From contig NZ_JXBW01000003.1 in the NCBI RefSeq assembly GCF_001447355.1, forward strand, positions 124,001 to 188,000: a stretch of 64,000 bases of DNA. Reading direction: 5' to 3'. The translations under genes were made by a program, and so were the position numbers. Under the pieces are notes generated by a model. It made no database searches, had not been told where the DNA came from, and saw only the letters and a list, made by a program, of their open reading frames with translations. Below, piece after piece: positions 148-18,018 of the stretch. Source of the DNA: Alicyclobacillus tolerans. Its GTDB lineage: Bacteria; Bacillota; Bacilli; Alicyclobacillales; Alicyclobacillaceae. Position 1 is the stretch's first letter, and the number at the start of each line of letters is the position of its first letter.

Positions 148-424
148 CGTAGTTTACGCCTCCTATTCATACGGAGTATATTCCTTTCGCCCAAATCAAA
201 GTGTGCGCTGCCGCACTATCGAGCGCCAAAGAAAACTAGCCACTGCCGTAGGACTGCTACCTACCCACCAAGAATACCCTGAGAAATCTAGATCGTATTG
301 AACCCGACTTTGTCAAGACAGAGGAGATGGCTTTTAAGAGAGAGATGGTAGACTTTCAAGTCAGACCGTCTAACGCTAAGTTCTATTGCATTTTCCAATT
401 TCTTATTCCAATGGCGAGCGATAC

Positions 425-1287
425 TTAGTGCGGAATGAGAGCGGTCCGTGTTGTAAAAATGGATGTACGACTGAACCGCTGCTTTAGCCTCGGAAAAGCT
501 GCTGTATTCCTGTAGCCGACCTCTTCTTCTTTCAGAGACCGGAAGAAATGCCCGATGTATTCGTCAGCATCAGGATTGTTGTAGCCCGTCCGCCCGTGGT
601 TGATTTGGCAGGCTTTCATCGATTCGATGAACCGGCGACTTGTCATCTGGCAATCGTTGTCCATTCGCAATTTCAATCCGGCACCTTAAACGCCGTGCGG
701 GAAGCGATAGTTCAGCGCCATATCCACAGCCTTCAGCAGGTACTCTGTACGGCAAAGCTGGGAAAACGAGTAGCCTATAATCTCGCGCTCACAAGCGTCA
801 ATCACAGCTATTCGTATGTGGGGAATTCTTCGCACGGTTTTTGGATCCACTGTTTGACCAGAGCGTCCTTGTCCACAGAAGGTCTGTTCGGATTTGGCGC
901 AGGCGGCTTCAGCAATCTGTAACAGTACGTCCGGTTCAGCCCTAATGCTTTACAATCACTGGGACCCGAAACCCTTCCTTAGCGAGCTGAGCAACCAAAG
1001 AACGGCTGCTTACTTCCGGCCCCAGTTCGAGTTTTTTCGCAACACATCGATTTCCATAGCCTGCTCGCCAATTTGACTCACGGCTTCCTGCAACCACTTT
1101 CCCAACTCCTGCTCCCTGGTAGAAGCAGCTGACTGAAGCCCTGCTCGTCCGCCAGTCATAAATGCGTCACGCCACTTGTAATACAGACTTGGGCCACACC
1201 ATGCTATCGGCAAACCTCGCTTATATTCGCCCCGGGAACCATCCCTTCCAACACAATGTCGCCCACTTTCCAATTACGCCCTAGCAT
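425..1287 (-). pseudogene. Decayed IS3-family transposase (OrfA and OrfB remnants)
   Basis: Remnant of an IS3-family (IS150/IS2-like) insertion sequence. An OrfA-like start at 1287 (MLGRNWKVGD) meets a stop after about 27 codons and resumes in another frame with the LYYKWRDAFM helix-turn-helix signature and a coiled-coil tail (1273-1010). An OrfB start with NRTYCYRLLKPP follows near 950 and runs into the DDE domain near 820, but the central catalytic part is deleted. The end, with DNDCQMTSRRF and NPDADEYIG...LKEEE (676-425), is again frame-shifted. At least three frame changes plus an internal deletion make it non-functional. Terminal inverted repeats were not identified. Bases 148-424 beside it hold no gene I can support. 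Confidence 0.8.
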
Positions 1288-1402
1288 GAGTCAAACACCT
1301 ACTACGTCTATTTTACCTTACGCCATCTGTCTGGGTCGGCTACGGGACCAATATAGATGACATCCCTCTTCGTTGTAACCCATATCACGTCACACCAGTA
1401 AC

Positions 1403-1436
1403 AATCCAGCTCAGGCTACAGTGGCTGAGCTGGATT
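1403..1436 (-). terminator. Stem-loop downstream of narI
   Basis: A perfect 12-bp inverted repeat (AATCCAGCTCAG / CTGAGCTGGATT) with a 10-base loop begins 28 bases after the narI stop. The following minus-strand bases are only moderately T-rich, so this is a likely but not strong intrinsic terminator for the nar operon. Confidence 0.55.
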
Positions 1437-1463
1437 GATGAAATGCCATCTTTGAACTTGAAA

Positions 1464-2144
1464 TCATTCGTGTACACTGTACCGTTTCCGATATTGGATA
1501 GGCGGCCTTGCAACGTAACCAACTGGCGCACTCCACACATGCACTAGGCGTGTAAAAGGAATCGAAGCCAATAGAATGAACGACGCCACGATATGCACCT
1601 GGAGCAATACAGGGACTGTGTGCATCAAATTCGGGTTTGGATGAAGCAGAACAATATCTCGAATCCAAGGACCCACTGTCGTTCGGTATTCATAAGGACC
1701 GACAACATTGTTATAACCCACAGTTTGCATTACACCAAGTCCAATGACAATCCACAATAAACCCAGACAGATAAAGTCAGATGGCGTGGAGTTATGTCGT
1801 ACACGCTTATTCACAATGCGTCTTATTAAAAGCAGTGAACAGCCAACAAACGTCACAACGCCAGCTAAACCACCGATTGTATCCGCAAGTACGTGGTGAT
1901 AAAACTCCGTTGAAATGTGGAAAAATTGATACACCGATATGGGAATGACAAGCCCCATCACGTGTCCGCCAATGACGGCCAGCATCCCAAAATGGAACAT
2001 GAGACTGCCTGGACGCAGCAGGCGCTTTTCAAGAATTTCACTCGATTTTGATCCCCAGCCTTTCGGCCGATAAACGAAGCGAAAAATAGAGCCTACAATC
2101 ATCAAACAGAGACACATATATGGAAAAATAACCCACAGAAACAT
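1464..2144 (-). CDS. narI: Respiratory nitrate reductase gamma subunit NarI
   Basis: Membrane cytochrome b subunit that oxidises menaquinol and passes electrons to NarH and NarG. At 226 residues it has the usual length for NarI, with about five hydrophobic spans. The haem-ligating histidine regions are seen in the GSLMFHFGMLAVIGGHVMGL segment and in LLQVHIVASFILL near the C-terminus. The ATG at 2144 has AAAGAGG 8 bases upstream. It is the last gene of narGHJI, 44 bases after narJ, and is followed by a stem-loop. Identification by sequence and operon position is firm. Confidence 0.96.
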   Translation of the reverse strand: MFLWVIFPYMCLCLMIVGSIFRFVYRPKGWGSKSSEILEKRLLRPGSLMFHFGMLAVIGGHVMGLVIPISVYQFFHISTEFYHHVLADTIGGLAGVVTFVGCSLLLIRRIVNKRVRHNSTPSDFICLGLLWIVIGLGVMQTVGYNNVVGPYEYRTTVGPWIRDIVLLHPNPNLMHTVPVLLQVHIVASFILLASIPFTRLVHVWSAPVGYVARPPIQYRKRYSVHE

Positions 2145-2188
2145 TTCCGACGCCTCTTTTCATTCACCATGAGCACTTCCCACGTCCA

Positions 2189-2851
2189 TCAGTCGTAAAC
2201 CAACGGGTACGGCATTGGAAGCGCGTCATCATGATCTGCTGACAATGCGCACGGGGCTGTAAGCGTTGGCTGACTTTGTTGCACGGTGCTTGATTCATCA
2301 AACCTTGCTGTTCGCTGTGATTCACTCGGAAGAGATAGCGCCGCTAAAGTGAATAAGCTTCGATACGGGTGTTCATCTTCCAATCGACCTTCAATTGCTT
2401 TGCAAACGATGCCTACACGATACTTCAATTCGTGAAGCATTTCGTCATCGTCCGCTTCAGCAAATAGCTCAAACAACGCCGGCAAGTAATCCGGTAACTC
2501 ACCCGTTTCAATTTCGTACCCCATGACTCGTAAAATCATGTGTAGCTTGACAAGTGCAGCACCTCGTTCACGACTCTCCCCTAACTCGTGCGCGGTGAGA
2601 TAGAGGGACGTTTTTTCGTTCATGTCAAACGCATTCACATAAACTTTTGCTAACTCTGGCAACGGCAGATGGCGCAAGTTATTTACGGATTTCGCCATAT
2701 CGACGTCTAACGCATTGAGCGAAACGTCAAGTGCATCCGCTAGCAATCCTTCAAACGCAGGGTGATCCGGATAGGAAAGCAGCACTGAGAGAATCTTCCA
2801 ACGTGTTTTCGAGCGTACTTCTTTGCTCGTTTGTGTAGCTGTCTCGAACAT
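2189..2851 (-). CDS. narJ: Nitrate reductase molybdenum cofactor assembly chaperone NarJ
   Basis: Dedicated chaperone of the TorD/NarJ (nitrate reductase delta) family. It binds the NarG N-terminus and helps insert the molybdenum cofactor before NarGH docks on NarI. The protein has 220 residues, is alpha-helical, and carries a central FDMNEKTSLYLT segment, a form of the NarJ-type D-x-x-x-x-x-S/T-L-Y-L-T motif. The C-terminal 35 residues are low complexity. Its ATG overlaps the narH stop by one base (TGATG), indicating translational coupling. Confidence 0.93.
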   Translation of the reverse strand: MFETATQTSKEVRSKTRWKILSVLLSYPDHPAFEGLLADALDVSLNALDVDMAKSVNNLRHLPLPELAKVYVNAFDMNEKTSLYLTAHELGESRERGAALVKLHMILRVMGYEIETGELPDYLPALFELFAEADDDEMLHELKYRVGIVCKAIEGRLEDEHPYRSLFTLAALSLPSESQRTARFDESSTVQQSQPTLTAPCALSADHDDALPMPYPLVYD

Positions 2852-4347
2852 CAGAATTCACCTCGCTGGCCTGCGCCAACAGGTGACACGATACCTTCTG
2901 GTGGCGCAATATCTTCAAGACTGCAAGCACCTTGTGCATAACCAAGGTCCGGTGTCGTTTCGCGATTGGCTGTTGGAATCACGAAACGCTCGTCGTACTT
3001 TGCAACACCAAACAATCTCGCCATCGCTTGCACCTGTTCCGTGGTTAAGTCGATTTGCTTGAGTAACTGACTCCCGTCGAGATCGTCAATGTTTTTTGCG
3101 CGCATGTACGCACGCATTGATGCAAGTTTTAATAAGGCCTTACGAACAGGTTGAACATCGCCAGCCGTGAGGATGGATGCCAGATATTCGACTGGAATGC
3201 GCATTTGATCCACCGTCGGTAGATAGCCGTCGACACTAAGATGCTCCTCATTTTTGACCATGCTCATCATTGGGCTCAAAGGTGGTACATACCACACCAT
3301 CGGCAACGTCCGGAACTCAGGATGCAGTGGCAATGCGATTTTCCATTCAACCGCCATTTTGTAAACAGGCGACCGTTGTGCAGATTCAATCCAAGCGTCA
3401 GAGATTCCGGCTTCTTTGGCCTTTTCAATCACTTCCGGGTCAAACGGGTCCAAAAATGCTTCCAACTGTGCTGAATACAGATCTTTCGGGTCTTCAACGG
3501 AAGCAGCTGCGCGGACTTTGTCCGCGTCGTACAACAGCACGCCAAGATAGCGGATGCGGCCAACGCACGTTTCTGAACAAATGGTCGGCAGTCCAGACTC
3601 AAGCCGTGGATAGCAGAAATGACATTTTTCTGCCTTGTGCGTGTTCCAGTTGAAGTACACCTTTTTGTACGGGCATGCACTGACGCAGAACCGCCAGCCG
3701 CGGCATGCATTTTGGTCTACTAAGACAATGCCATCTTCATCGCGTTTATAGATGGCGCCTGATGGACACGCGGCAACGCATGCCGGATTTAAGCAGTGTT
3801 CGCAAATACGCGGCAGGTACATCATAAATGTCTGCTCATAAGCGAATCTCACGTGCTGTTCAATCTGGTCAAAGTTTGGGTCGGTCGGTGCAATTTCCGA
3901 TCCGCCCGCTAAATCATCATCCCAGTTTGGACCCCACACAGGCTGATTCATAAAATCGCCTGTGAGAAGAGAACGCGGCCGAGCAACGGGTTGATGCTTT
4001 TTCTTTGGACTGTCAATTAAGTTTTCGTAGTCATATGTCCACGGTTCGTAATAATCGTCAATCGTTGGCAAATCCGGGTTATGAAAGATATTGGCTAGCT
4101 TCTGGACTGCGCCGCCAGCACGTAACTGGAGCTTGCCGTTCTTTAAGCGCCATCCACCCTTAAACTTTTCTTGGTCTTCCCAGCGCTTTGGGTATCCCGG
4201 ACCTGGCCGTGTTTCGACGTTGTTAAACCAGGCGTATTCGACACCGGGGCGGTTTGTCCAAGTATTTTTACAGGTAACACTGCACGTGTGACACCCGATA
4301 CATTTGTCAAGATTCATCACCATTGCAACTTGCGCCTTAATCTTCAA
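2851..4347 (-). CDS. narH: Respiratory nitrate reductase beta subunit NarH
   Basis: Iron-sulfur electron-transfer subunit, 498 residues. Ferredoxin-type cysteine groups are visible: CIGCHTCSVTC near residue 16, CEHCLNPACVAACP, and CRGWRFCVSACP, where Trp replaces one Cys, the hallmark of the [3Fe-4S] cluster of NarH. A fourth group is CHFCYPRLESGLPTICSETC. The start is a TTG at 4347, giving MKIKAQVAMV, which agrees with Bacillus NarH. It lies inside the last 11 bases of narG with GAGGTG upstream. The gene ends overlapping narJ. Confidence 0.96.
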   Translation of the reverse strand: MKIKAQVAMVMNLDKCIGCHTCSVTCKNTWTNRPGVEYAWFNNVETRPGPGYPKRWEDQEKFKGGWRLKNGKLQLRAGGAVQKLANIFHNPDLPTIDDYYEPWTYDYENLIDSPKKKHQPVARPRSLLTGDFMNQPVWGPNWDDDLAGGSEIAPTDPNFDQIEQHVRFAYEQTFMMYLPRICEHCLNPACVAACPSGAIYKRDEDGIVLVDQNACRGWRFCVSACPYKKVYFNWNTHKAEKCHFCYPRLESGLPTICSETCVGRIRYLGVLLYDADKVRAAASVEDPKDLYSAQLEAFLDPFDPEVIEKAKEAGISDAWIESAQRSPVYKMAVEWKIALPLHPEFRTLPMVWYVPPLSPMMSMVKNEEHLSVDGYLPTVDQMRIPVEYLASILTAGDVQPVRKALLKLASMRAYMRAKNIDDLDGSQLLKQIDLTTEQVQAMARLFGVAKYDERFVIPTANRETTPDLGYAQGACSLEDIAPPEGIVSPVGAGQRGEF

Positions 4348-7300
4348 GCCAATTCACCTCTTTAAGTGGTCGTACAAACGTCATAACATCACGTTGGTGT
4401 CCTGTCGGTCCGTAGTAGTTGAAACCGTAACTGAGTTGTGCATAGCCGCCAATCATGTGTGTCGGCTTCGGAATAATGCGTGTCACGCTGTTGTGCGTAC
4501 CACCTCGGTCGCCTGTGATTTGACTACCAGGTACACCGACGGTTCTGTCCTGCGCGTGGTACATCATCGCAATGCCCATGGGTAAACGGTAAGTCACCAC
4601 CGCACGCGCGGAAATAGCACCGTTGCGATTAAACACTTCGACCCAATCGTTATCCTTGATGCCAATTTTCTTCGCATCTTCTTCGCTCATCCAAATCGTC
4701 TGTCCACCGCGGAACAGCGTCAACATCCGATGGTTGTCGCTATAGGTTGAATGAATGCCCCACTTCTGGTGTGGCGTCAGATACCGAACCATCACCGTCT
4801 GACCTTCGCCAAGCGTTGCAGCATCTTCATCTGCAAATGGCATAATGCCAAGTGCCGGACGATAGAGCGGGAGAGTTTCGCCAAAGTCGTTCATGACTTC
4901 GTGGTCGACATAGAAGTGCTGGCGACCCGTTAAGGTGTGCCATGGAACCTTGAATTCCACATTGACTGTGAATGGAGAATAGCGTCGCTCTTCTCCTTCA
5001 AGCCCGCTCCAGACTGGTGTCGCGAACGATAGCCGCGGTTGCGCGGTGATGTCTGCAAATGTATAGGCTTCTTCGTGACGTCCTGCCGACACATCTTTCA
5101 AATTGAGACCCGTTGTTTGGCTCAAGGCCGTCCACTCTTCCACAGCACGGTGTCCATTTGTCGCACCAGACAAAGTCAAAATCGCCTCTGCCACCTGAAT
5201 TTCAGTGTGAATTTGCGGCCGCTGTGCGCCAAGCACCTCGCGGCTGCCGTTTCGTTTCACGACGTCTTCGTAGGCATGCTCGCCGGAAATCGAAATCCCT
5301 TTTGCGCCGTATCCTTTCTGGGATAACGGGCCGAGTGTCGTCATTTGATCAATGAGGTTTGGGTAATCGCGCTTCACAATTGTGATTTTTGGCATCGTCC
5401 TTCCAGGGATTGCGTCCACTTCACCCTTGCGCCAATCACGCACTCTCCCACCCACATTTGCGAGTTCATCGGCTGAATCATGCGCGAGTGGTGACATGAC
5501 AATGTCGTCGCAAGCGGGCAAATGGTCCTTTGCAAGTTTTGAAAACGTCTCTGCAATCGAGCGAAACGCAACCCAGTCGGTCCGCGTTTCCCACGGTGGT
5601 GAAATGGCCGGATTAAAGGGATGGATAAACGGATGCATGTCTGTCGAACTGATATCGTGCTTCTCATACCACGTTGCCGCAGGCAAGACGATGTCCGAAT
5701 AAAGTCCGGTACCTGTCATCCGAAAATCGATATCGACGAGCAAATCTACTTTGCCTTCAACCGGCGCATCTCGAATGACAATGTCGGACGGTTGCCAAGA
5801 TGCCTTTTCATCAGCCAACACGTGGCCACTTGCGCCTAAAAGATGTTTCAAGAAATACTCGTGGCCTTTACCGCTCGATCCCAGCAAGTTCGACCGCCAG
5901 ACAAAAAACACACGCGGGAAGTTGTCCTCGTTGTCCGGATCTTCGATTGCGAATTGGATATCCCCACGTTTCAACTGCTCAACCACCCACGACACAATTT
6001 CCTCGTTCGTCGTCGCACCGTGCTCTTTCGCCTCGTTAACGACAGACAACGAATTTTGCGTCCATTGCGGGAACGATGGTAACCATCCAAGTCGCGCAGC
6101 CATCGCGTTCATATCCGCTGGATGCATCTCGTGAAAACGCGATGCTTTCACGGGTGAACCCATCGTGCGTGTGTCTAACTCTTCATACCGATATTGATCC
6201 GTCGCAAAGTAGAAGAACGAGGTGCCATTCATCTGTCTCGGGGGACGCACCCAGTCAGTTGCAAACGCGATGGTGCTCCAACCCTCGAGCGGACGTACCT
6301 TTTCCTGACCCACGTAATGCGCCCATCCGCCGCCATTGACGCCTTGGCAACCCGTCAAAAGCACTAAGTTGATAATTGCCCGATAAATCATGTCACTGTG
6401 GTACCAGTGGTTCGTCCCAGCGCCAAGTGCAATCATCGACCGACCTTGAGTCTTTTCTGCGTTGTCAGCAAATTCTCGAGCGATTTGAATGACATCTTCC
6501 CGCCGTACGCCGGTAATCGCTTCTTGCCAAGCCGGTGTGTAAGGTGAAGATGCGTCGTCAAAATCGACCGGATAATCACCGACGAGTCCGCGCGAGACAC
6601 CGGTATGCGCCATCAACAAATCAAGTACAGTCGTAACTGCCACTGTTCGATTATCGGTCGTCGTCACGTACTTCACCGGAACATGCCGTGACAATACGGA
6701 CGGTTTGTTGTCGCCGAAGTAAGGAAAGCGAATCGGCAAGGTTGCGTCGGCTTGGTGAATAAGTGTTAAACTCGGCGAAAGCGGTGTGCCGTCATCACTT
6801 TCCATCCGAAGGTTCCATTGTTGCGATCCGTCGTATCGATAGCCGAGACTCCCTTTTGGCACCGCCAGTGCATTCGTCGTTTCATCCCAAACGACTGTTT
6901 TCCAGTCGCCCTGCGCGATAGATGCGTCGAAATCCGCTGCGTGCAAAAATGTACCGGCTGCGTAGCCATCTTCCGTTTCGTCGATTTGTACAAGAAACGG
7001 TAAATCCGTGTATTGTTTGACGTATTCTGCAAAGTACGGTGTCTCTTTATCGACATAAAACTCTTTCAAAATCACGTGTGTCATGGCCATTGCGAGTGCC
7101 GCATCGGTTCCTGCTTTTGCTGGGAGCCACTTATCGGCAAACTTGATGTACTCAGAGTAGTCTGGGCTAACCCCGACGACTTTTGTGCCTTTATATCTCG
7201 CTTCAACCATAAAGTGTGCATCTGGTGTACGCGTCATCGGTAAATTGGTACCCCAGATGATGAAGTAGCCCGCGTTGTACCAGTCCGCAGACTCCGGCAC

Positions 7301-8023
7301 ATCCGTTTGGTCTCCCCAGATTTGTGGGGACGCCGGCGGTAAATCCGCATACCAGTCATAAAAGCTGAGAATCGTGCCACCAAGAAGTGACAAAAATCGC
7401 GATCCGCCCGCATAACTCACCTGTGACATCGCCGGGATCGGACTGAAGCCAACAACCCTGTCTGGGCCATACTTTTGAATCGTGTGAATGATTGCAGCTG
7501 CGATAATTTCTGTTACTTCATCCCACGAGGTCCGGACGAAACCACCTTTCCCGCGAGCAGATCTATACGATGAACGCCTTTCTTTATCCGACACGATGTT
7601 ACGCCATGCTGTGACCGGATCATTGCCTAAATCTCTTTCGTGGCGCCAAAGGACCAATAGTTCGCTACGAATGTATGGATATTTGACACGTGAGGGGCTG
7701 TACTCGTACCACGAAAAACTCGCGCCACGAGGACAACCTCGCGGTTCGTATTCCGGTACATCCGCACCAAGCGACGGGTAGTCGGTCTGCTGTGTTTCAA
7801 ACGTGATAATTCCGTCCTTTACGTGAATCTTCCAACTGCACGAACCCGTACAATTTACCCCGTGTGTCGATCGAACCACTTTGTCAAAACGCCAGCGATT
7901 CCGATAGATTTGCTCCCAATCCCTTTTCCCTGCTGTCGCTTGCGACCAGTTTTCATTAAATGTTTCCGAGCGACGACGTAAATGATTTAGTCCATTAAAC
8001 AGCGATTTGCGCCGATTTTCCAT
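4337..8023 (-). CDS. narG: Respiratory nitrate reductase alpha subunit NarG
   Basis: Catalytic subunit with bis-MGD molybdenum and a [4Fe-4S] cluster (FS0), reducing nitrate to nitrite on the cytoplasmic face. The open frame extends to 8134, but the ATG at 8023 (MENRRKSLFNG) has AGAGAGG 9 bases upstream and gives 1228 residues, the length of Bacillus subtilis NarG. Visible motifs are the FS0 ligands in THGVNCTGSCSW, the Asp Mo-ligand region YDWYADLPPASPQIWGDQTD, and GVNGGGWAHYVGQEK. No twin-arginine signal is seen, as expected for cytoplasm-facing NarG. It is the first nar structural gene, after two accessory genes. Confidence 0.97.
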   Translation of the reverse strand: MENRRKSLFNGLNHLRRRSETFNENWSQATAGKRDWEQIYRNRWRFDKVVRSTHGVNCTGSCSWKIHVKDGIITFETQQTDYPSLGADVPEYEPRGCPRGASFSWYEYSPSRVKYPYIRSELLVLWRHERDLGNDPVTAWRNIVSDKERRSSYRSARGKGGFVRTSWDEVTEIIAAAIIHTIQKYGPDRVVGFSPIPAMSQVSYAGGSRFLSLLGGTILSFYDWYADLPPASPQIWGDQTDVPESADWYNAGYFIIWGTNLPMTRTPDAHFMVEARYKGTKVVGVSPDYSEYIKFADKWLPAKAGTDAALAMAMTHVILKEFYVDKETPYFAEYVKQYTDLPFLVQIDETEDGYAAGTFLHAADFDASIAQGDWKTVVWDETTNALAVPKGSLGYRYDGSQQWNLRMESDDGTPLSPSLTLIHQADATLPIRFPYFGDNKPSVLSRHVPVKYVTTTDNRTVAVTTVLDLLMAHTGVSRGLVGDYPVDFDDASSPYTPAWQEAITGVRREDVIQIAREFADNAEKTQGRSMIALGAGTNHWYHSDMIYRAIINLVLLTGCQGVNGGGWAHYVGQEKVRPLEGWSTIAFATDWVRPPRQMNGTSFFYFATDQYRYEELDTRTMGSPVKASRFHEMHPADMNAMAARLGWLPSFPQWTQNSLSVVNEAKEHGATTNEEIVSWVVEQLKRGDIQFAIEDPDNEDNFPRVFFVWRSNLLGSSGKGHEYFLKHLLGASGHVLADEKASWQPSDIVIRDAPVEGKVDLLVDIDFRMTGTGLYSDIVLPAATWYEKHDISSTDMHPFIHPFNPAISPPWETRTDWVAFRSIAETFSKLAKDHLPACDDIVMSPLAHDSADELANVGGRVRDWRKGEVDAIPGRTMPKITIVKRDYPNLIDQMTTLGPLSQKGYGAKGISISGEHAYEDVVKRNGSREVLGAQRPQIHTEIQVAEAILTLSGATNGHRAVEEWTALSQTTGLNLKDVSAGRHEEAYTFADITAQPRLSFATPVWSGLEGEERRYSPFTVNVEFKVPWHTLTGRQHFYVDHEVMNDFGETLPLYRPALGIMPFADEDAATLGEGQTVMVRYLTPHQKWGIHSTYSDNHRMLTLFRGGQTIWMSEEDAKKIGIKDNDWVEVFNRNGAISARAVVTYRLPMGIAMMYHAQDRTVGVPGSQITGDRGGTHNSVTRIIPKPTHMIGGYAQLSYGFNYYGPTGHQRDVMTFVRPLKEVNWLED

Positions 8024-8093
8024 TGTTTCCATCCTCTCTATGCGTGCGAAAGCGTAAGACAGTGCTTTATTAAGATTAGATTTCGTGTGTGTA

Positions 8094-8366
8094 TCAGACA
8101 GGTCGGTACTGTTCTCCGGCAATCCGAAACGCATTCACACTTTCCTGTAACTCGTTGAGAAAGCTTTTCCAATCTGGTACGTTCGACGCGACGAGAATGA
8201 GGCGTTCCAAGGACGTAGCATCACTCATTTTCATGATAAATGCCTTGGCATTAGGCGGGACTTCTCCGAAACGAATTCGCAAAATTGCAAGTAGATCTTC
8301 CTTGTCGGTCTCTAGTGCAAACTCGCGAAACTGTTCCTCAAACTGGTTGTTGTAGTTGGCGTTCAA
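8094..8366 (-). CDS. DUF4351-like small protein between hemerythrin and narG
   Basis: A 90-residue soluble protein of unknown function. The segment LLAILRIRFGEVP followed by LERLILVASNVPDWKSFLNELQ resembles the short helical DUF4351 unit (LL-RRFG-P ... LE-L...S...F...L). I chose the TTG at 8366 because GGAGGAG lies 10-12 bases upstream. An ATG at 8399 in the same frame would add 11 residues but has a poor site. Either start lies inside the end of the hemerythrin-like gene, so the two are probably translationally coupled. Only 70 bases separate it from narG. A role in nitrate reductase maturation or regulation is inferred from position only. Confidence 0.7.
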   Translation of the reverse strand: MNANYNNQFEEQFREFALETDKEDLLAILRIRFGEVPPNAKAFIMKMSDATSLERLILVASNVPDWKSFLNELQESVNAFRIAGEQYRPV

Positions 8367-8832
8367 GCGGTTCACTCTCCTCCAAGGTTTGTTTGACATC
8401 GTTTGTTCGTAAAGCCTGCCCGTCGAGCAAGCATCGTTCTTCGTCGCGGCTATGTATTTCGTTCACCCACAGTAGTGCGTCTAAACGAAACGAAATGGCC
8501 CGGCTATCGAACGTGTGTGACAAAAGTTGTTCGAGTTCGGCGACAAGGTTGCGCATTAAATCGTGATCGCGAATCAATTGCGCAATTTCCTCGGCACGAT
8601 GAGGCATTGCCTCGCGGCATTCTTGGTAAAAACCGATTTCTTCGTCCGCCGCATGGCGAAGCGTCCGTGTTTTCCAGTGATCGAGGATGGCTTCAGCGAG
8701 TGCAACGGCGCGTTCGCTGTCCCCTTTCTCCACCAGGTGGTGGAACAATACCGTCATCTCCTGTGCCTCGTGAAACGCTGCTTCGTGTATCGCGTGGTGC
8801 GCATCTAGTTGTTTCAATGCCGGACCTGACAA
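8338..8832 (-). CDS. Hemerythrin-like (HHE domain) protein in nar operon
   Basis: A 164-residue protein with the histidine and glutamate pattern of a di-iron hemerythrin HHE domain: HHAIHE near residue 12, HH at 31-32, HWKTRTLRHAADEE around 52-65, RDHDLMR around 89, and a late HSRDEE. Such domains bind O2 or NO or take part in iron-sulfur repair (YtfE/ScdA types); which applies here is unknown. The start is TTG at 8832 with AAGGAGG 7 bases upstream. It follows narK by 60 bases and overlaps the next gene. Placement in a nitrate operon suggests sensing or detoxifying NO/O2 during nitrate respiration (inference). Confidence 0.85.
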   Translation of the reverse strand: MSGPALKQLDAHHAIHEAAFHEAQEMTVLFHHLVEKGDSERAVALAEAILDHWKTRTLRHAADEEIGFYQECREAMPHRAEEIAQLIRDHDLMRNLVAELEQLLSHTFDSRAISFRLDALLWVNEIHSRDEERCLLDGQALRTNDVKQTLEESEPLERQLQQPV

Positions 8833-8892
8833 AATAAAACCTCCTTGATACCTTCATCGTGATGACTTATGTGTTCTCAACATACATAAAAC

Positions 8893-10095
8893 TCAAGCAG
8901 CGACACGTACCCTTTTCGTCGGCGCGCTTTTCCTCGTGCGGTACTGGATGAGTAGAACAACCAGCGCAATCACGCAAGAAAGTGCAAGGAACAACATACC
9001 GACCAAGTAACTACCTGTTGCTTGTTTCAGAGCACCCATGACAAGCGGAGGGAAAAATCCACCCATACCACCGATGGCACCAATGATGCCGGTTGCCTTC
9101 CCAGTTGTATGTGGGAAATAGGTTGGCACCAACTTGAACACTGCACCGTTGCCGATACCAAGCATGATAGAAATGACTAATGCAGCAATCGTCGCGACAG
9201 CCATATTCGCCATACCAAAGCCGAATACAGCGGCCATGATTGCAATTACGGCAAATGTCATGATGAGCAAGTTCTTTGGTGCAATCTTATCTGCGAGATA
9301 ACCACCGACAGGACGCAACGCGGTAGCGAGCACAACAAAGCCTGATGCACGAAGTCCTGCACTGACTGGCGGCATGTGATAAATGCTCTGTAAAAGTGTC
9401 GGGAGATAATTGCCAAAAGCAACGAACCCACCGAACGTAATAAAATAGAACATGGATAAAACCCATAGGTTTGAGGTGGTCCAGAAACCTTTGGCGTCTA
9501 GTTTCATGGCGTTTGCTTGATTTACGGTAGGCTCTAATGTTGCCTTTTCGGATTTCGCGTCTCTCGTGAACAGCCACAAGCATGCAGCCATGATGAGCAC
9601 TGGGATAACTAATACGCGTGCCGTGTTCGCAAAGCCAAGATGTAAGAACATCACGGGGATGGAGAAACCAGCGACCGCAGTACCAATGTTACCAAGTGCG
9701 GTAATCCCCAGCACCAAGCCTTGTTGTTTTGGAGGATACCATGCTGAAACGTGGCCAATGCCGACTGCGAATGACGTTCCGGCGACGCCCAGTAGAATCT
9801 CCCAAAACACAAACGTGCCGAAGTGATGTGCAAATGAAATTCCGAACAACGGAATGACGAGATAAACCATTAAAACAGTGTAAACAATTCGACCGCCAAA
9901 TCTGTCTGTCAGCATGCCAATTGGAATGCGGAAGAGTGAACCAAGAAGTACGGGTGTTGCTACGAGTATGCTTTTGTCAAACTCACTAAGATGCATGGCC
10001 TTGGTCATCTGTGGTGCAACTGGGGAAATCATGGACCACACTACAAAGGAAACAATCATTGCAACCATCGACATCATCATGACGGAACGTCGCAT
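8893..10095 (-). CDS. narK: Nitrate/nitrite transporter NarK (MFS)
   Basis: A 400-residue major facilitator protein of the nitrate/nitrite porter family with about 12 membrane spans. Family features are the early LLGSLFRIPIGMLTDRFGGR loop and Gly-rich ITALGNIGTAVAGF and IIGAIGGMGGFFPP stretches that match the nitrate-signature helices. The open frame begins at 10161, but the ATG at 10095 (MRRSVMMMS) has GGAGG 8 bases upstream. It is the first gene of the minus-strand nitrate block and probably imports nitrate and/or exports nitrite. An FNR-like palindrome lies about 305 bases upstream. Confidence 0.93.
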   Translation of the reverse strand: MRRSVMMMSMVAMIVSFVVWSMISPVAPQMTKAMHLSEFDKSILVATPVLLGSLFRIPIGMLTDRFGGRIVYTVLMVYLVIPLFGISFAHHFGTFVFWEILLGVAGTSFAVGIGHVSAWYPPKQQGLVLGITALGNIGTAVAGFSIPVMFLHLGFANTARVLVIPVLIMAACLWLFTRDAKSEKATLEPTVNQANAMKLDAKGFWTTSNLWVLSMFYFITFGGFVAFGNYLPTLLQSIYHMPPVSAGLRASGFVVLATALRPVGGYLADKIAPKNLLIMTFAVIAIMAAVFGFGMANMAVATIAALVISIMLGIGNGAVFKLVPTYFPHTTGKATGIIGAIGGMGGFFPPLVMGALKQATGSYLVGMLFLALSCVIALVVLLIQYRTRKSAPTKRVRVAA

Positions 10096-10399
10096 CTTGC
10101 AGTCCTCCATTCGAAAAAGAGAAGGCAAAGTGCCAGTGGTAGAACTATATCTTAGATGCAATTATTGCGGCAGACACGATGGGACCATCTCTGAACTGAA
10201 ACGTACTAGTCTCTTCAGACTAGGACCGACGCAATGGGGCCCTCCAATCGTCTAGGCTTTGGAAACAAGTCCACTCACTCCTTCCCGTGATGTGCGATCT
10301 TCGGATGTCGGATTAGTTCAGCAGGGCCATGAACCCTCGTCCTTCCGGACTCCCTCAATTCGTGCGGTACAAAATAACGTCCCCCCATGACGGGCGACG

Positions 10400-10415
10400 T
10401 GTGCGCTAAATCACA
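10400..10415 (-). promoter_or_regulatory. FNR/CRP-like operator, narK side
   Basis: TGTGCGCTAAATCACA matches the TGTGA-N6-TCACA consensus of FNR/CRP-family regulators at 9 of 10 defined positions. On the minus strand a weak -10 (TATTTT, 10375-10370) lies 32 bases from the centre, close to the class II activator spacing. It is probably the anaerobic control site for narK. Confidence 0.6.
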
Positions 10416-10476
10416 CCTTTATCCGAAGCAAAGGTGTTGTTACAAACTGTTCTAGTTTCACGTGAGCATCGGTCAC

Positions 10477-10519
10477 CGTGACGCTACTCACAGTGGCAAA
10501 CACGAGATCCGCGTACACT
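10477..10519 (+). promoter_or_regulatory. FNR/CRP-like operator with -10 of the Rieske operon
   Basis: CGTGACGCTACTCACA (10477-10492) matches TGTGA-N6-TCACA at 9 of 10 positions. A TACACT -10 element sits at 10514-10519. If transcription starts about 7 bases after it, near 10526, the operator centre is at -41.5, the classic class II activator position. No good -35 hexamer is present, as expected for an activator-dependent promoter. Confidence 0.65.
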
Positions 10520-10560
10520 GACACAGTAGTTAGTAGATGGAAGAGAGGAAGTGCGAGCAG

Positions 10561-10812
10561 ATGAGGATTCGGGAACATTTTCTCCTTGGTACAGAACAGG
10601 CGACGATTTCAGTGACGGCAAAAACCGACTGCGAGCGGCCAGCGCTGTTCCGTCACGCCGTGGACAGCATCCTCACCAGATATCAAGAAGAATTCGGCGT
10701 GGACGCGTGTCAGGCCCTAGTCCAGTCGCTGAAATCGACGAAGCGCCCGGACATCAACTGGCGGCTTCGGCCTGAGGACTCGTGTTGGAACCACGTGGAG
10801 GGATCGCGATGA
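10561..10812 (+). CDS. Unknown 83-residue protein, first gene of Rieske operon
   Basis: Not recognised. The ATG at 10561 (MRIREHFLLG) has AGAGAGG about 12 bases upstream; an in-frame ATG at 10537 lacks a site. The protein is soluble and polar, with three cysteines (DCE, DAC, SCW) and a central helix (HAVDSILTRYQEEFGVDACQAL). Its stop overlaps the next start (ATGA), so it is co-translated with the methyltransferase. It could be a small partner protein of that enzyme, but nothing in the sequence shows this. Confidence 0.65.
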   Translation: MRIREHFLLGTEQATISVTAKTDCERPALFRHAVDSILTRYQEEFGVDACQALVQSLKSTKRPDINWRLRPEDSCWNHVEGSR

Positions 10813-11600
10813 AAATCCCAAACTTCAAAACTGAACAAGGCAGCATCCTGTACAAGGACACCGTCGGCAGGCTGATCTCGCCGCGCGTTGCGGGTATCCT
10901 GCTCGAACAGGCACAGTTTCAATTGGGATATCTCAATGCGAGACAAGTTCTCGATCTCGGCTGCGGGCCCGGGACTCTCACACTCCCGCTTGCCGTTGGA
11001 AACCCGGAGCTCGCTATCACTGCCGTGGACGCTTCCAAGTCGATGGTTGGTCTCGCCGCTGCTGAAGCCGCAAAGCTTGGCGTTTCAAACATCCGTTTTG
11101 CACAGATGGACGCAGGTCACATCTCGTTAGCTCCTGGTTCCTTTGACCTCGTCCTCTGCAACCTGGCATTTCCCTTCTTCCCAAGGCCGGAACAGAGCAT
11201 GTCTGAGGTCTTTTCTGTCCTTCGCCCCGGAGGCGTAGCCTGCTTTACCGTGCCGGGCCGAAAGACGTGGGGTGAATTTTTCGAAGTGGCCGCTGCCTCC
11301 CTCGGTGACATGATCAGTCTCGCGAGGCCGTTTCTCGTCAAATTTTCGCAGGCGGATGCGCTTCCCGATGCCATGCACGCGGTCGGCTTCGAGCAGGTCG
11401 CACAGCAAAAAACACTGCTTCCTTTTTCCTTCGCGAACGGTCAGGCCGTTCTCGACTTTTTTGGAGAGCTGTTTCATTTGCTTGACTATGCGACGCCGGA
11501 CATGAAGTCGGAGATCGCGGATGCGATTGACCGGGACCACGCAGACGGATTTACGATGCACTACGAGGCAGTTTTGCTAACAGCACAGCGGCCGTCGTAA
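10809..11600 (+). CDS. Class I SAM-dependent methyltransferase
   Basis: A 263-residue Rossmann-fold methyltransferase. SAM motif I is VLDLGCGPGTLTLP around residue 50, an acidic motif II follows in ITAVDASKSMV, and motif III/post-I regions are FAQMDAGHI and FDLVLCNLAFPF. The C-terminal half (VLRPGGVACFTVPG, then helices) is typical of UbiE/Methyltransf_11-like small-molecule or quinone methyltransferases. The substrate is unknown. The ATG at 10809 has GGAGGG 5-6 bases upstream and overlaps the upstream stop by four bases. Position under an FNR-like site suggests a role in low-oxygen or nitrate-respiring cells (inference). Confidence 0.88.
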   Translation: MKIPNFKTEQGSILYKDTVGRLISPRVAGILLEQAQFQLGYLNARQVLDLGCGPGTLTLPLAVGNPELAITAVDASKSMVGLAAAEAAKLGVSNIRFAQMDAGHISLAPGSFDLVLCNLAFPFFPRPEQSMSEVFSVLRPGGVACFTVPGRKTWGEFFEVAAASLGDMISLARPFLVKFSQADALPDAMHAVGFEQVAQQKTLLPFSFANGQAVLDFFGELFHLLDYATPDMKSEIADAIDRDHADGFTMHYEAVLLTAQRPS

Positions 11601-11621
11601 AGGTGTAGAGGGGGACGAAGC

Positions 11622-11927
11622 ATGTCTGTTTGCAAATCAAGCGCCACAACTGTCCGCTTCAAGCTGGTTTGGCATGACAGCGAATTGGCGCACTTGACGA
11701 CTTATCTGAACGCGTACTTCGAACGAACTGCAGACTGGACGAATGCTGTGCAGGACATGCCGCTTGAGTACAAGCGGGATCGGCCGTACGCTCGGCTTGT
11801 CGCAAACGGAGACTTTTATGTTGAAGCCGGCTGGCGGATCGACCATTTTGCGCTGGACTGCGGCGGTCAGCCTGTTCTGATTGCGGTCGATGACGAGGGA
11901 AATCGGTCATACTACCCACTACCATGA
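11622..11927 (+). CDS. Unknown 101-residue protein, Rieske operon
   Basis: Not recognised. The start at 11622 follows GAGGGGGA and lies 21 bases after the methyltransferase stop. The protein begins with a beta-rich segment (TTVRFKLVWHDSELAHL), then an aromatic helix (YLNAYFERTADW), then two more beta-rich parts ending in DEGNRSYYPLP. There is no signal peptide or membrane span. It is followed 40 bases later by the Rieske ferredoxin gene, so it is probably part of one four-gene transcript. Confidence 0.7.
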   Translation: MSVCKSSATTVRFKLVWHDSELAHLTTYLNAYFERTADWTNAVQDMPLEYKRDRPYARLVANGDFYVEAGWRIDHFALDCGGQPVLIAVDDEGNRSYYPLP

Positions 11928-11967
11928 GGAACACAGAATAGTGTTTGAACGAAGGAGGAGACCCGAG

Positions 11968-12276
11968 ATGGCATGGGTGTCAATTGCAGATGAGTCGGAG
12001 ATCGCTGTGGGAGATATGAAATACTTTTCCGCTCTAGACGTACCAGTGACCGTGTACCACCTCGAAGACGGCTGGTATGCGACGTCGGATGTTTGCACGC
12101 ATCAGGACTGTTCACTTTCTGAGGGGGAGATCGAAGAAAACGAAATCGTCTGCTGGTGCCACGGCGGGGCGTTTAACATCCGCACTGGAGAGGCCACGCG
12201 GATGCCGTGCGTGATTCCGGTAGAAACCTTTGCAGTGCGCATCCGGGAAGGACGCGTCGAAGTCGATGTGGAATGA
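11968..12276 (+). CDS. Rieske-type [2Fe-2S] ferredoxin
   Basis: A 102-residue soluble Rieske protein of the BphA3/NirD-like ferredoxin type. The cluster ligands are complete: CTH, then 16 residues, then CWCH, i.e. C-x-H-x16-C-x2-H. The rest follows the family (VPVTVYHLEDGWYATSDVCTH; GGAFNIRTGEATRMPC). The open frame runs back to 11881, but the ATG at 11968 has AAGGAGGAG upstream and gives the normal ferredoxin length. It would shuttle electrons to a dioxygenase or reductase; no such partner is adjacent. A distant ring-hydroxylating dioxygenase lies at 58595-60463, but a link is speculative. Confidence 0.92.
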   Translation: MAWVSIADESEIAVGDMKYFSALDVPVTVYHLEDGWYATSDVCTHQDCSLSEGEIEENEIVCWCHGGAFNIRTGEATRMPCVIPVETFAVRIREGRVEVDVE

Positions 12277-12294
12277 CCCTCTGGTGGAGGGTCA
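12274..12294 (+). terminator. Hairpin at the end of the Rieske operon
   Basis: TGACCCTC / GAGGGTCA forms an 8-bp perfect stem with a 5-base loop that starts in the stop codon of the ferredoxin gene. There is no T-run after it, so it may stabilise the 3' end rather than act as a strong intrinsic terminator. Confidence 0.45.
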
Positions 12295-13172
12295 CCGAAC
12301 CACCGATATGATGCCAAGCACCAACACCGTTACGCCAGCCAGTGAAATAACTGCTATGAGCAGTCTGTTCAGCCAGCTAGGCAGTAAACGCGCTCCGTTT
12401 CCATGAAACAGCGGACCGTGACTTTCTATCCAAACTCCCCTCCGGTCTCTGTTGAGATTCGCGACCCCGGGACAGCTTAAGCGCGAACTGCGGACTCCCC
12501 GGCAGTGCCCATCAGGATTGGCAGCGCATGCTCTGACATCACACCGAGCCAATCCGTTTCATTCGGCGAAAGCTCAGTCAAAACGGACTTCAAGAGGCCC
12601 AGACACCGTATTAACAGCATATACCGCGCCTGGAGTCGAAACAACTGCTGTGACCGCAGGCGACGGATGAGGTTGGCATTTAGTCGTCCGGTAACCGGAC
12701 CAATGTCGCGCAGCCACTCGGCAGGATTGACCTCTGCTGGCAAGTAACCCAACTCCTGCAAATCTTCAACAACACCGAGCGCATCTCTGAGAAAAACGCT
12801 CTGAATCAAGCGGCGAAAGGTTTTCCGTTCCGCTTTGCTGTACTCTGCCACCATACCAAAGTCGAGCAGAGCCAACTTGCCGTCTGTTTGTACGAGTGAG
12901 CTTCCAGGATATAGATCGATGTGAACAAAACCCGTTTCGAGAATTTGCTTCAGGTAGACCTGAAGCAACGTGTTCCGTACTTTTACCGTGTCCACATGCC
13001 AGTCCTGCAGTTGCGCACGATTCCCCACATTTGCACCTGTGAGGAAGGTGACGTCCTGTAGCAGTCCACCCAGTCCACCACAAAGCACACCGTCTAACCA
13101 CTCGAAACCCAACGGCTGGGTCATTGTTCCGAGCACAACTGTCAGTTCACTGACCCTTCCATCATGGTGCAA
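12292..13172 (-). pseudogene. Remnant of an ABC1/UbiB/AarF-family atypical kinase
   Basis: The 231-codon frame 13172-12477 contains GFVHIDLYPGSSLV and KLALLDFGMVAEYS, matching the catalytic HADPHPGN and DFGM regions of AarF/UbiB-type kinases. The usual Asp and Asn of the HxDPHPGN loop are altered (HIDLYPGS). The N-terminal two thirds, including the KxGQ region, is missing. The C-terminal membrane segment expected for the family (LLIAVISLAGVTVLVLGII) lies in a different frame at 12552-12292. Truncation, frameshift and altered motif together suggest a pseudogene. Bases 13173-13410 upstream show nothing clear. Confidence 0.65.
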
Positions 13173-13410
13173 TATGGTATATGAGCTGCAAATTCTATCG
13201 CATGTCGATTTGCGAACAGGCCCAAGTGAGTACGGGAAGCCCTATTGTCGTGTGCCGCCTACTTAACCACATCGTTATATCTGCTTCATGCACTAGGCCA
13301 GGATAGCCAAAGCTTGACCTCAAAAGCGCGGAGATGCACTATCCTACAATCGTATAAACCGCGCTTATATCCCATTTTCTTGCAGGCGCACCTGAGCCAC
13401 ACCAAATACT

Positions 13411-13457
13411 AAAAATCGGGGTTTTTGCGATCCGAATTCCAGATCGAAAAACCCCGA
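13411..13457 (-). terminator. Terminator of the Ser-Met-Thr tRNA operon
   Basis: On the minus strand, a stem of TCGGGGTTTTT (13457-13447) and its complement (13426-13416), extended by GATCG pairing inside, is followed by five T residues (13415-13411). It lies 28 bases after the tRNA-Thr gene. Confidence 0.85.
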
Positions 13458-13484
13458 AAAGCCGGTCTTTGCGGCATTTCATTA

Positions 13485-13559
13485 TGGAGCCACCTGTCGG
13501 ATTCGAACCGACGACCTGCTCATTACGAGTGAGCCGCTCTACCCCTGAGCCAAGGTGGC
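13485..13559 (-). tRNA. tRNA-Thr(CGT)
   Basis: Full cloverleaf with acceptor GCCACCT / AGGTGGC and encoded CCA. The anticodon loop is CTCGTAA with anticodon CGT; the T-arm is GTCGG TTCGAAT CCGAC. Last gene of a three-tRNA operon. Confidence 0.95.
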
Positions 13560-13572
13560 ATCTGTTTTGGTT

Positions 13573-13649
13573 TGGTAGCGGCGGAGGGATTTGAACCCCC
13601 GACACCACGGGTATGAACCGTGTGCTCTGACCAACTGAGCTACGCCGCC
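13573..13649 (-). tRNA. tRNA-Met(CAT), elongator type
   Basis: Cloverleaf with acceptor GGCGGCG, anticodon stem CACGG / CCGTG and loop TTCATAC, anticodon CAT, CCA encoded. The sequence is close to Bacillus elongator tRNA-Met, and the anticodon stem lacks the three G-C pairs of initiators. Confidence 0.92.
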
Positions 13650-13703
13650 ATCCTCTACACAGAGTTGTTCGGCCAGCGAAGACACTGGCCGAACCATAAA
13701 CTT

Positions 13704-13796
13704 TGGCGGAGAGAGTGGGATTCGAACCCACGAGACGGTTTTACCCGCCTACACGATTTCCAATCGTGCTCCTTCGGCCAACTCGGACATCTCTCC
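13704..13796 (-). tRNA. tRNA-Ser(GGA)
   Basis: 93-base class II tRNA with a long variable arm, acceptor GGAGAGA, anticodon loop TTGGAAA (anticodon GGA) and encoded CCA. First gene of the tRNA operon, directly downstream of the serine biosynthesis operon. Confidence 0.95.
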
Positions 13797-13829
13797 ACAA
13801 CTGTCCTCGCGTATCGCGCGACAGTTGAT

Positions 13830-13858
13830 ATATTAACACGGATCTTTAGGATTCGCAA
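13830..13858 (-). promoter_or_regulatory. Promoter of the Ser-Met-Thr tRNA operon
   Basis: TTGCGA (-35) and TAATAT (-10) with a 17-base spacer lie between the HAD gene stop and tRNA-Ser, about 33 bases before the tRNA 5' end. The tRNAs can therefore be made independently of the upstream ser operon. Confidence 0.65.
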
Positions 13859-13861
13859 GAC

Positions 13862-14968
13862 TTAAAACAACGACTTAATACCCAACACGTTTTCGAAGAT
13901 ATAATCCGCACCCAGGCGCTCGAACTTCGGACGTGCCCCTTCTCCTTCAAGCCCTGTCAAGACCGCTGCAAACGAAGCACCAAGGCGTTGTGCGGCAAGT
14001 CCATCCGCAATCGAATCGCCTACAATGAGTACCTTGTCCTTCATATCGAATAAAGGCAATTCGCAAGCCAGCAAGCTTTCCACATCGTGATCGCCCGTCA
14101 ATGAACGCAGATAAGAGAACGGATGCGGTTTCGACAGTGGCCGCGCCGAGGGACATTGCTCCTCCGCTTCAACGACATCAGAAGCGGTGGTGACGTGCGC
14201 GAGATCGAAATGCTGCAGCCACCCGAAGTGTGTGAGTGGTACATGAGTTTCGATGCGCGGCCGTCCTGTGGCAACGCCCATCGCAATACCCTTTTGCTTC
14301 AACTCGGTAAGCAATTCCGAAAATGCGTCCGGGGGGACGATGGCGTACTCGCTCGTGAGAAAACCTTGTTTACCTGTCGTTTTGCCCGTGTAGCCATCCC
14401 CCAAGTACCACTCCTGAAAAGTGGCTTGTCCGATGTTCCAGAGATCGTGCGGATCGCCACCGGAGCAGTGCTGGGAAAGAGCCTTGGCCGCCGCATCCAT
14501 GAGCTCAGCCCGCGAGTGGCAGCCCGCATACAAAGTGTCATAAGCGTCCCAACGGACAATGTGCTCAATTCCATTTGCCCGTGCAGCGTCGCCGATTGCT
14601 TGCAACGCTTCGACAGTCCATCCGCCAGTCAACGCGCTCGCTATTTGCATGGCAAACGCGCGATCACTGACACTTTGTCGCAGGAGTGCGTCTAATTCAG
14701 CGACGAAGACAAAATAAACCATGTCCCAATTTGCGTTCACACCCACGTTTTTGAGGCGCTCGAGTACCTGATCGCGCTGAAAGACGTCCTTGCGAATCTG
14801 GCCGATCACGCTGTCATCCGGCGCCGGAGAAAATGCCGGCGAGATCGAACGCAAGCCAAGGAACGATGTACTGGTCAACAATTCGTGCACCGTGAGTGCA
14901 GAAGCATCAAAATACCGTTCCTCGCTTAACATGACGCCATCGATATCGAACAAAACCGTCGTATACAT
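13862..14968 (-). CDS. HAD-superfamily hydrolase, last gene of serine operon
   Basis: A 368-residue haloacid dehalogenase-type phosphatase. Motif I is FDIDGVML at residues 7-14 (nucleophile and acid Asp). Motif II is the Thr of GVATGRPR. Motif III Lys is in SKPHPF, and motif IV is VGDSIADGLAAQ. A large insert of about 180 residues between motifs I and II forms the cap. The gene starts 12 bases after serC with GGAGG before the ATG, so it is in the serA-serC operon. It may be the phosphoserine phosphatase that completes serine synthesis (inference from context; it is longer than classical SerB). Phosphoglycolate-type activity is an alternative. Confidence 0.85.
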   Translation of the reverse strand: MYTTVLFDIDGVMLSEERYFDASALTVHELLTSTSFLGLRSISPAFSPAPDDSVIGQIRKDVFQRDQVLERLKNVGVNANWDMVYFVFVAELDALLRQSVSDRAFAMQIASALTGGWTVEALQAIGDAARANGIEHIVRWDAYDTLYAGCHSRAELMDAAAKALSQHCSGGDPHDLWNIGQATFQEWYLGDGYTGKTTGKQGFLTSEYAIVPPDAFSELLTELKQKGIAMGVATGRPRIETHVPLTHFGWLQHFDLAHVTTASDVVEAEEQCPSARPLSKPHPFSYLRSLTGDHDVESLLACELPLFDMKDKVLIVGDSIADGLAAQRLGASFAAVLTGLEGEGARPKFERLGADYIFENVLGIKSLF

Positions 14969-14980
14969 CCAAAACCTCCA

Positions 14981-16060
14981 TCAGCCATTGCGGCGCGCAA
15001 AATCTTGCATAAACTCAGCGAACCGCAGAGCGGCTTCAACAGGTACCGCATTGTAGAGCGAGACGCGCACACCACCCACGGTGCGGTAACCCTTGACGCC
15101 CACGAAACCGCGCTCTGCAGCTTCTGCCAAGAACGACTTCGTCAACTCGTCACTTGGGAGACGGAACGTGACGTTCATTTCAGAACGAGCCCGCTTTTCC
15201 GCATGTCCGAGGTACAGATTCGGATGTGTATCGATCACGTCATACACAGCAGCCGCCTTTTTCTGGTTGCGTTCGACGATCCCGGCCAAGCCACCGGTCT
15301 CCTCCACCCACTGCAAAACGCACGACATGACATAAATCGCGAAGGTCGGCGGCGTGTTATAAAGCGAATTCGCTTGCGCATGAGTGCTGTACTTCAGAAC
15401 GGTCGGAACATCGCTGTTTGCCGTTTGTAAGAAATCATCGCGAACGATCACGACGGTGACGCCGGACGGTCCGATGTTTTTCTGAGCACCTGCGTAGATC
15501 AGCGCAAAATCCTCCACCCGGACAGGCCGCGACAAGATGTCACTCGACATGTCCGCAACGAGAGGCGCCGTGGTCTTTGGCAACGCTCGCCACTGCGTCC
15601 CGTAAATGGTATTGTTCGACGTAATATGAACATACCGCAACGACGGGTCATCTCCTGCAATCGATGTAGGAATGTCCCGATAACCGCCCTGTTTGGCCCA
15701 ATCGTCGATCAGCAACTCGCCGTAGCGCCCGGCTTCATCTGCCGCCTTCTGCGACCATGATCCGGTCAACACGTATAGTGCCTTCTCGCCCGGTTTCAGA
15801 AAATTCATCGGCAACATCGCGAATTGCAAGCTCGCGCCGCCTTGTAAAAACAACACCTGATAGCCATCAGGGATGCCAAGCAGTCGCCGCAGGCGTGTTT
15901 GGGCATCGTTGTGAATGGCTTCATACTCCGCGCTACGATGGCTGAATTCCATGACGCTCATGCCCGTCCCGCTGTAATTGGGGAGCTCTGCTTGAATGCG
16001 CTCGAGTACCGGCAACGGTAAGGCTGCTGGCCCTGCGTTAAAGTTGTCCGCTCGTTTCAC
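14981..16060 (-). CDS. serC: Phosphoserine aminotransferase SerC
   Basis: PLP enzyme converting 3-phosphohydroxypyruvate and glutamate to phosphoserine. The N-terminus NFNAGPAALP, LFLQGGASLQFAM, and the PLP-lysine region IYAGAQKNIGPSG are diagnostic. I place the start at the GTG at 16060, because GAGGAG lies 8 bases upstream and the 359-residue product has the family's usual length; the open frame extends to 16093. It follows serA by 66 bases and precedes the HAD gene by 12. Confidence 0.96.
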   Translation of the reverse strand: MKRADNFNAGPAALPLPVLERIQAELPNYSGTGMSVMEFSHRSAEYEAIHNDAQTRLRRLLGIPDGYQVLFLQGGASLQFAMLPMNFLKPGEKALYVLTGSWSQKAADEAGRYGELLIDDWAKQGGYRDIPTSIAGDDPSLRYVHITSNNTIYGTQWRALPKTTAPLVADMSSDILSRPVRVEDFALIYAGAQKNIGPSGVTVVIVRDDFLQTANSDVPTVLKYSTHAQANSLYNTPPTFAIYVMSCVLQWVEETGGLAGIVERNQKKAAAVYDVIDTHPNLYLGHAEKRARSEMNVTFRLPSDELTKSFLAEAAERGFVGVKGYRTVGGVRVSLYNAVPVEAALRFAEFMQDFARRNG

Positions 16061-16126
16061 GAACTCCACTCCTCTATCTGTCGTTCTTACCACACGATAC
16101 GACCGGTCTATCGACCGCCATCGGAC

Positions 16127-17716: not shown

Positions 17717-17787
17717 TCGAATTCTCCTTACCACTCCGGCATGTACAGCAACGGCCGCTGAGACTTTTACGCAGAACGCGTCAAAGT

Positions 17788-17860: not shown

Positions 17861-18018
17861 CCGTGTCTATCTGTACTCTCAATGCAACGATGAATCAAGA
17901 ATAACACATGCGCTCACTTTCGCACAATACAGACTACTGTGGACCACTCGGATTCAACATGGGCAACGTGCATGAAAAAGTAGGCCGCGTCTTGGGCCTG
18001 CTTATAGCCATAAAGGGC

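Follow-up and report, generated by a model that had tools for sequence, protein, structure and literature searches.

In Thermus, the drpAB genes encode DUF2249 proteins, adjoin the nar operon within mobile regions for nitrate respiration and are DnrT-dependent, and the DUF2249 proteins act in nitrate respiration (PMC6282519). DUF2249 proteins are also induced in haloarchaeal denitrification (PMC11218638), and in P. stutzeri DnrD activates ric (PMC9268430). Here we describe a four-gene operon, P83-MT-P101-Rieske, located beside a nar block within a 64-kb stretch of DNA (hereafter the window) of genome G000. Literature searches returned no description of a Rieske/methyltransferase/nitrate module, and we consider it probable that these genes form an accessory operon of the denitrification/NO regulon of the Alicyclobacillaceae, carried together with nar on a tRNA-adjacent island.

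Gene content of the locus

The four genes are tightly packed on the plus strand and point away from narK and the nar block, as a first-pass annotation made from the sequence alone had described. P83 and MT overlap in ATGA, and gaps of 21 bp and 40 bp separate MT from P101 and P101 from Rieske, respectively. A hairpin without a T run spans the last stop codon of the operon and is a possible 3′ end of its mRNA. The features are as follows.

294..13480: island of about 13.2 kb (nar block and operon), absent from congener G003
1464-2144: narI
2189-2851: narJ
2851-4347: narH
4337..8134, minus strand: narG, followed by narH, narJ and narI
8338..8832, minus strand: hemerythrin-like protein, part of the nar block
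8893..10161, minus strand: NarK-type nitrate/nitrite transporter, divergent from the operon and on the same island
10561..10812, plus strand: P83, 83 aa, uncharacterised family
10809..11600, plus strand: MT, class I SAM-dependent methyltransferase, 263 aa
11622..11927, plus strand: P101, 101-aa alpha+beta protein, uncharacterised family
11968..12276, plus strand: Rieske, stand-alone [2Fe-2S] ferredoxin, 102 aa
12273..12294, plus strand: hairpin, 9-bp stem, -13.8 kcal/mol
12480..13052, minus strand: ABC1/UbiB-like kinase, C-terminal fragment (residues about 237-426 of about 430)
13485..13796, minus strand: tRNA-Ser, tRNA-Met, tRNA-Thr array at the island edge

A further, uncharacterised minus-strand ORF of 101 aa (window 8094-8399) lies between the hemerythrin-like gene and narG, and a homologue (56%) occurs in the nar operon of G017 (L044:1711-2058).

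The methyltransferase

Matches to Pfam and NCBIfam models bear out the earlier identification of a SAM methyltransferase and a Rieske protein. MT is matched by general SAM methyltransferase models and has the class I fold and SAM motifs of the BioC/UbiE-like fold family, with signatures of its own in an N-terminal (K/R)IPNF and a conserved NLAFPFF motif. It scores far below every equivalog cut-off, and identification as the BioC malonyl-ACP methyltransferase (TIGR02072, 83 vs a cut-off of 185 bits) or as UbiE/MenG (TIGR01934, 47.7 vs 158 bits) was rejected.

In several genera MT neighbors DUF2249, hemerythrin-cupin, Mrp and ABC1 genes. In G147, which belongs to another family outside the order, NorB, a small protein, MT and a Crp/Fnr regulator are encoded in a row; MT there has a perfect CRP/FNR-type box (TGTGA-N6-TCACA) at -91, and the small protein beside NorB is also encoded on contig C25 of G000. 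No other single locus ties MT to NO as strongly. Elsewhere (L058:4395-10738), MT lies downstream of an operon that encodes a non-nar molybdopterin oxidoreductase and includes a hemerythrin-like gene; this position suggests a wider role in anaerobic respiration. In G037 (L006:9921-12635) the reading frame of MT extends unbroken across an upstream ClC-type channel that has a CBS-like region (904 aa); since a box lies between channel and MT, and the two are separate genes in G016, a channel-MT fusion is doubtful.

One alternative is a quinone-pool module, in which MT and the ABC1/UbiB-like kinase methylate or tune quinone for anaerobic nitrate respiration while the Rieske protein handles electrons. 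A full-length ABC1 kinase gene lies beside MT, convergent with it, in G020, G039 and G041, ABC1 and MT share CRP/FNR boxes in L059 and L060, and UbiE/UbiG models match MT weakly. However, the window retains only the C-terminal fragment of the kinase, the UbiE-type models fall far short of their cut-off (47.7 vs 158 bits) and the adjacent genes include neither a quinone hydroxylase nor an oxygenase; we regard this alternative as unlikely.

The two small proteins

The first-pass annotation had matched neither the 83- nor the 101-residue protein to anything known, and this held in Pfam, NCBIfam and the PDB, by sequence and by fold. Predicted structures matched no PDB fold (P83, pLDDT 76, best E 3.2; P101, pLDDT 84.5, best E 0.35), and the profile searches proposed at that stage, run with alignments of both proteins against the PDB, yielded chance matches only. 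Judging from their conservation across genomes, both are real genes. P83 orthologs from 15 genomes share 41–66% identity and the motifs LLGT..T...TA and, C-terminally, DSCW; a class-wide search found the family in this order only. P101 homologues are 39–54% identical, with none found outside the family/order in a class-wide search. Scanning genome contigs with the single P101 sequence gave no match, and an alignment scan of the contigs gave two loci, in Alicyclobacillus mengziensis and A. tolerans.

In relatives, P83 is found next to OsmC, DUF2249, ScdA/RIC or Mrp genes, with Mrp following narI. A second P83 copy lies beside OsmC just outside the window (L055:9246-9502; G000:C23:123345-123601). 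This resident copy, at the opposite side of the island, is split across two frames (frameshifted) and the island copy is intact, as if the latter had replaced the former. An uncharacterised family of 115–140 aa (PxGHxxHGYRRVF...MPYE), with no Pfam or NCBIfam match, adjoins DUF2249 genes at L112:4128-4550 and at L044, L059, L060 and L119.

Neither P83 nor P101 is a DUF2249/Drp protein, as neither has a PF10006 match in Pfam. A nitrate/nitrite sensing module resembling Thermus DrpA/DrpB, with P101, P83 and MT tuning the expression or maturation of nitrate reductase, would suit an operon that shares its island with narK, is oriented away from it and has DUF2249 neighbors in relatives, much as drpAB adjoins nar and is DnrT-dependent (PMC6282519). 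Yet none of the four proteins has a DUF2249 or DUF1858 match in Pfam, and MT-P101-Rieske lies away from nar in other genera; we find this as improbable as the quinone-pool module.

The Rieske ferredoxin

The Rieske protein (PF00355, E 9e-21; below every equivalog cut-off) carries the ligands C43-x-H45-x16-C62-x2-H65, in agreement with the CxH-x15-17-CxxH pattern and invariant in five homologues. Two extra cysteines, C48 and C64, are likewise invariant in all five. In the Rieske proteins of bc1/b6f complexes (CTHxxC ... CxCH), the equivalent positions are held by the disulfide cysteines. The corresponding residues are Ala and Phe in CarAc and Trp and Leu in the toluene dioxygenase ferredoxin. 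These two proteins are the best PDB matches (CarAc 1vck, E 8e-20; toluene dioxygenase ferredoxin 3dqy, E 4e-15), and the bc1-type entries 3fou and 1nyk were also among the matches. On alignment, C48 and C64 form a pair at the bc1-type disulfide positions and are a candidate disulfide.

No partner oxygenase or reductase genes of a ring-hydroxylating dioxygenase occur among the neighbors examined. A role as electron donor to NirK is unlikely, because the NirK-like protein has a lipoprotein-like start and the Rieske protein no export signal (both by eye). The nirK-like locus encodes a second, 60% identical Rieske ferredoxin (L112:716-1036), preceded by a CRP/FNR box and a 176-aa gene that is uncharacterised.

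Regulatory boxes and the candidate regulator

Two boxes and a candidate -10 element were located upstream of P83.

10400..10415: box 1, TGTGCGCTAAATCACA, one mismatch to TGTGA-N6-TCACA
10477..10492: box 2, CGTGACGCTACTCACA, with its centre at position -41.5 relative to a putative +1 near 10526
10514..10519, plus strand: candidate -10, TACACT, weak (4/6 of consensus)

The first-pass annotation had placed a single FNR/CRP-like palindrome at about -41.5. The palindrome, box 1, exists, but that position leaves it no usable -10 (best 3/6, lacking TAnnnT), and the second box, for which the -41.5 position gives TACACT as a candidate -10, had been missed. A scan for generic sigma-70 promoters was negative in this region. 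Within the 64 kb, four sites match TGTGA-N6-TCACA with at most one mismatch, near the chance expectation of 2.35; two of the four fall inside the 399-bp narK-P83 intergenic region, an arrangement seen in 1 of 3000 dinucleotide shuffles. The reverse complement of box 1, TGTGATTTAGCGCACA, fits a conserved MT-upstream motif, NGTGANNNNGCGCACA, that is common to 7 of 15 MT loci and appeared in none of 500 shuffles.

A box with at most two mismatches lies upstream of 14 of the 15 MT orthologs, within 400 bp (shuffled mean 3.0, maximum 10 in 500 runs). At the same threshold 47 of 167 neighboring genes also have a box; these are mostly DUF2249, hemerythrin-cupin and ABC1 genes, i.e. members of the same regulon as MT. 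With at most one mismatch, boxes were found at 5/15 MT orthologs (shuffled mean 0.3) and 6/14 P83 orthologs (shuffled mean 0.27, maximum 3), and seven P83 orthologs are without a box. Together with the gene neighborhoods, the ortholog boxes support the proposal that this is a box-controlled accessory module tied to nitrate respiration, of which the searched sources give no description.

The 99.8% complete genome G000 encodes only one strong Crp/Fnr-family (HTH_Crp_2) protein, on contig C25; its conserved region contains a single Cys, and it lacks an FNR-type cysteine cluster. This Crp/Fnr regulator devoid of Fe-S cysteines is encoded in a nir/nor-type locus, which also holds a NirK-like gene, DUF2249 genes and polytopic membrane proteins that appear NnrS-like by eye. 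Six boxes occur in 18.6 kb of C25, flanking the nirK-like, DUF2249 and second Rieske genes. With 184 bits, the NirK-like protein does not reach the 296-bit cut-off of TIGR02376, and a PF00115 search of G000 recovered two cytochrome oxidase subunits with no separate NorB match.

The FNR control that had been assigned at first pass thus loses its support. True [4Fe-4S] FNR responding to oxygen alone would suit the box type and the nar neighborhood; however, the sole strong HTH_Crp_2 match in this near-complete genome has no cysteine cluster, and box type by itself cannot separate the FNR, CRP and Dnr families; we consider such control quite improbable. A search for E. coli-type FNR sites (TTGAT-N4-ATCAA) gave none near the operon. 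The absence of the cysteine cluster and the nirK/DUF2249 location favor a Dnr/NnrR-like regulator, possibly NO-responsive, which is more likely than an oxygen-sensing FNR on present sequence evidence.

Conservation of the gene set and the island

Among 101 relatives, MT was found in 15 genomes (E≤1e-20), P83 in 15 and P101 in 5, and the complete P83-MT-P101-Rieske set in this genome only. The first-pass annotation had made its proposal depend on the four genes recurring together; as a foursome they do not, whereas the MT-P101-Rieske trio is kept in two other genera, represented by G037 (Alicyclobacillus mengziensis) and G020, and the genes remain linked through shared boxes, co-occurrence and neighbors. 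An A. tolerans contig (G021) carries an MT-P101 pair. In G016, MT has an internal deletion and P101 is gone, and the P101 of G019, which is separated from MT, appears degraded. Among the loci examined P83 adjoins MT solely in the window. The four genes are therefore not one conserved unit; P83 is a separate regulon member that has been joined to the others here. In most genomes MT is present but P101 and Rieske are not with it, so the three need not share one reaction, and the many genomes that have MT without P101 or Rieske argue that MT can act alone.

Co-occurrence was evaluated across the 59 genomes of the order, with Fisher and hypergeometric p-values that are optimistic because related genomes are not independent: all five P101 genomes carry MT (hypergeometric p=0.0006), MT co-occurs with P83 (p=0.001), and DUF2249 accompanies P83 in 15/15 genomes (p=0.002) and MT in 14/15 (p=0.025).

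The congener G003 matches the window at positions 13481-22505 (95.5%) and 2-293 (87.5%), and the 13.2 kb between is missing from it. One junction lies a few bases from the tRNA-Ser/Met/Thr array and the other edge carries an IS3-like transposase remnant (by eye); no integrase was obvious among the annotated ORFs. A tRNA at the edge and absence from a close relative with conserved flanks identify the segment as a genomic island. That the four are unrelated passive hitchhikers caught on this mobile island with no joint role, as the uniqueness of the set and the IS3-like remnant and gene fragment at the island edges might imply, is very unlikely given the ATGA overlap, the short gaps, the MT-P101-Rieske order kept in G037 and G020, and the fact that MT and P83 are each independently linked to one and the same regulon.

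Proposed role of the operon

Taking genes, boxes, neighbors, co-occurrence and island together, we return to the accessory operon of a denitrification/NO regulon. We propose that the two TGTGA-N6-TCACA boxes bind a regulator of the CRP/FNR family, probably the cysteine-poor, Dnr/NnrR-like protein encoded in the nirK locus, with box 2 acting from the class II (-41.5) position and reinforced by box 1, so that transcription of the operon would be induced when nitrate is respired and nitrite and NO accumulate. Because G000 appears to have a NirK-like protein but no NorB, pressure from NO is expected, and the most likely role of the operon would be protection or repair. The Rieske protein, with its bc1-like cysteine pair, may supply single electrons, and MT, with P101 as a dedicated partner or carrier, may methylate a small molecule or cofactor and so limit damage by NO; P83 would be a small accessory factor of the NO response. 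A bolder version, which we hold to be rather doubtful, is a new NO-response pathway in acidophilic Bacilli that lack an NO reductase, in which a dedicated MT-P101 complex, powered or gated by Rieske through a redox-active, bc1-like cysteine pair, would chemically modify a cofactor or metabolite so that these denitrifiers withstand NO, and P83 would be a further component.

The proposed operon would add to the denitrification/NO regulon of a Gram-positive acidophile two protein families without a library match, P83 and P101, and a methyltransferase, and it points to a stand-alone ferredoxin-type Rieske protein with a bc1-type cysteine pair. The defined operator makes the regulon claim directly testable. 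As this bacterium appears to make NO without NorB, the question arises of how it copes.

Comparison with known systems

Like Thermus drpAB (PMC6282519), the locus combines small uncharacterised nar-tied genes with a Crp/Fnr-type regulator and mobile DNA; unlike drpAB, none of its four proteins belongs to DUF2249, and it includes a methyltransferase as well as a Rieske ferredoxin. With the NO-response genes of Dnr/NnrR/DnrD systems, e.g. RIC/YtfE/NorA (PMC9268430), it shares (predicted) Crp/Fnr-type control and the neighbors hemerythrin, RIC (beside P83) and NorB (beside one MT), but the proteins are different and the operon itself is without RIC. MT has the class I fold and SAM motifs of BioC/UbiE-type methyltransferases, yet its own signatures and denitrification context set it apart. 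Finally, the Rieske protein resembles CarAc (1vck) and the toluene dioxygenase ferredoxin (3dqy) in size, fold family and CxH-x16-CxxH ligands, and differs from the dioxygenase ferredoxins in having no adjacent oxygenase and an extra invariant, bc1/b6f-like cysteine pair.
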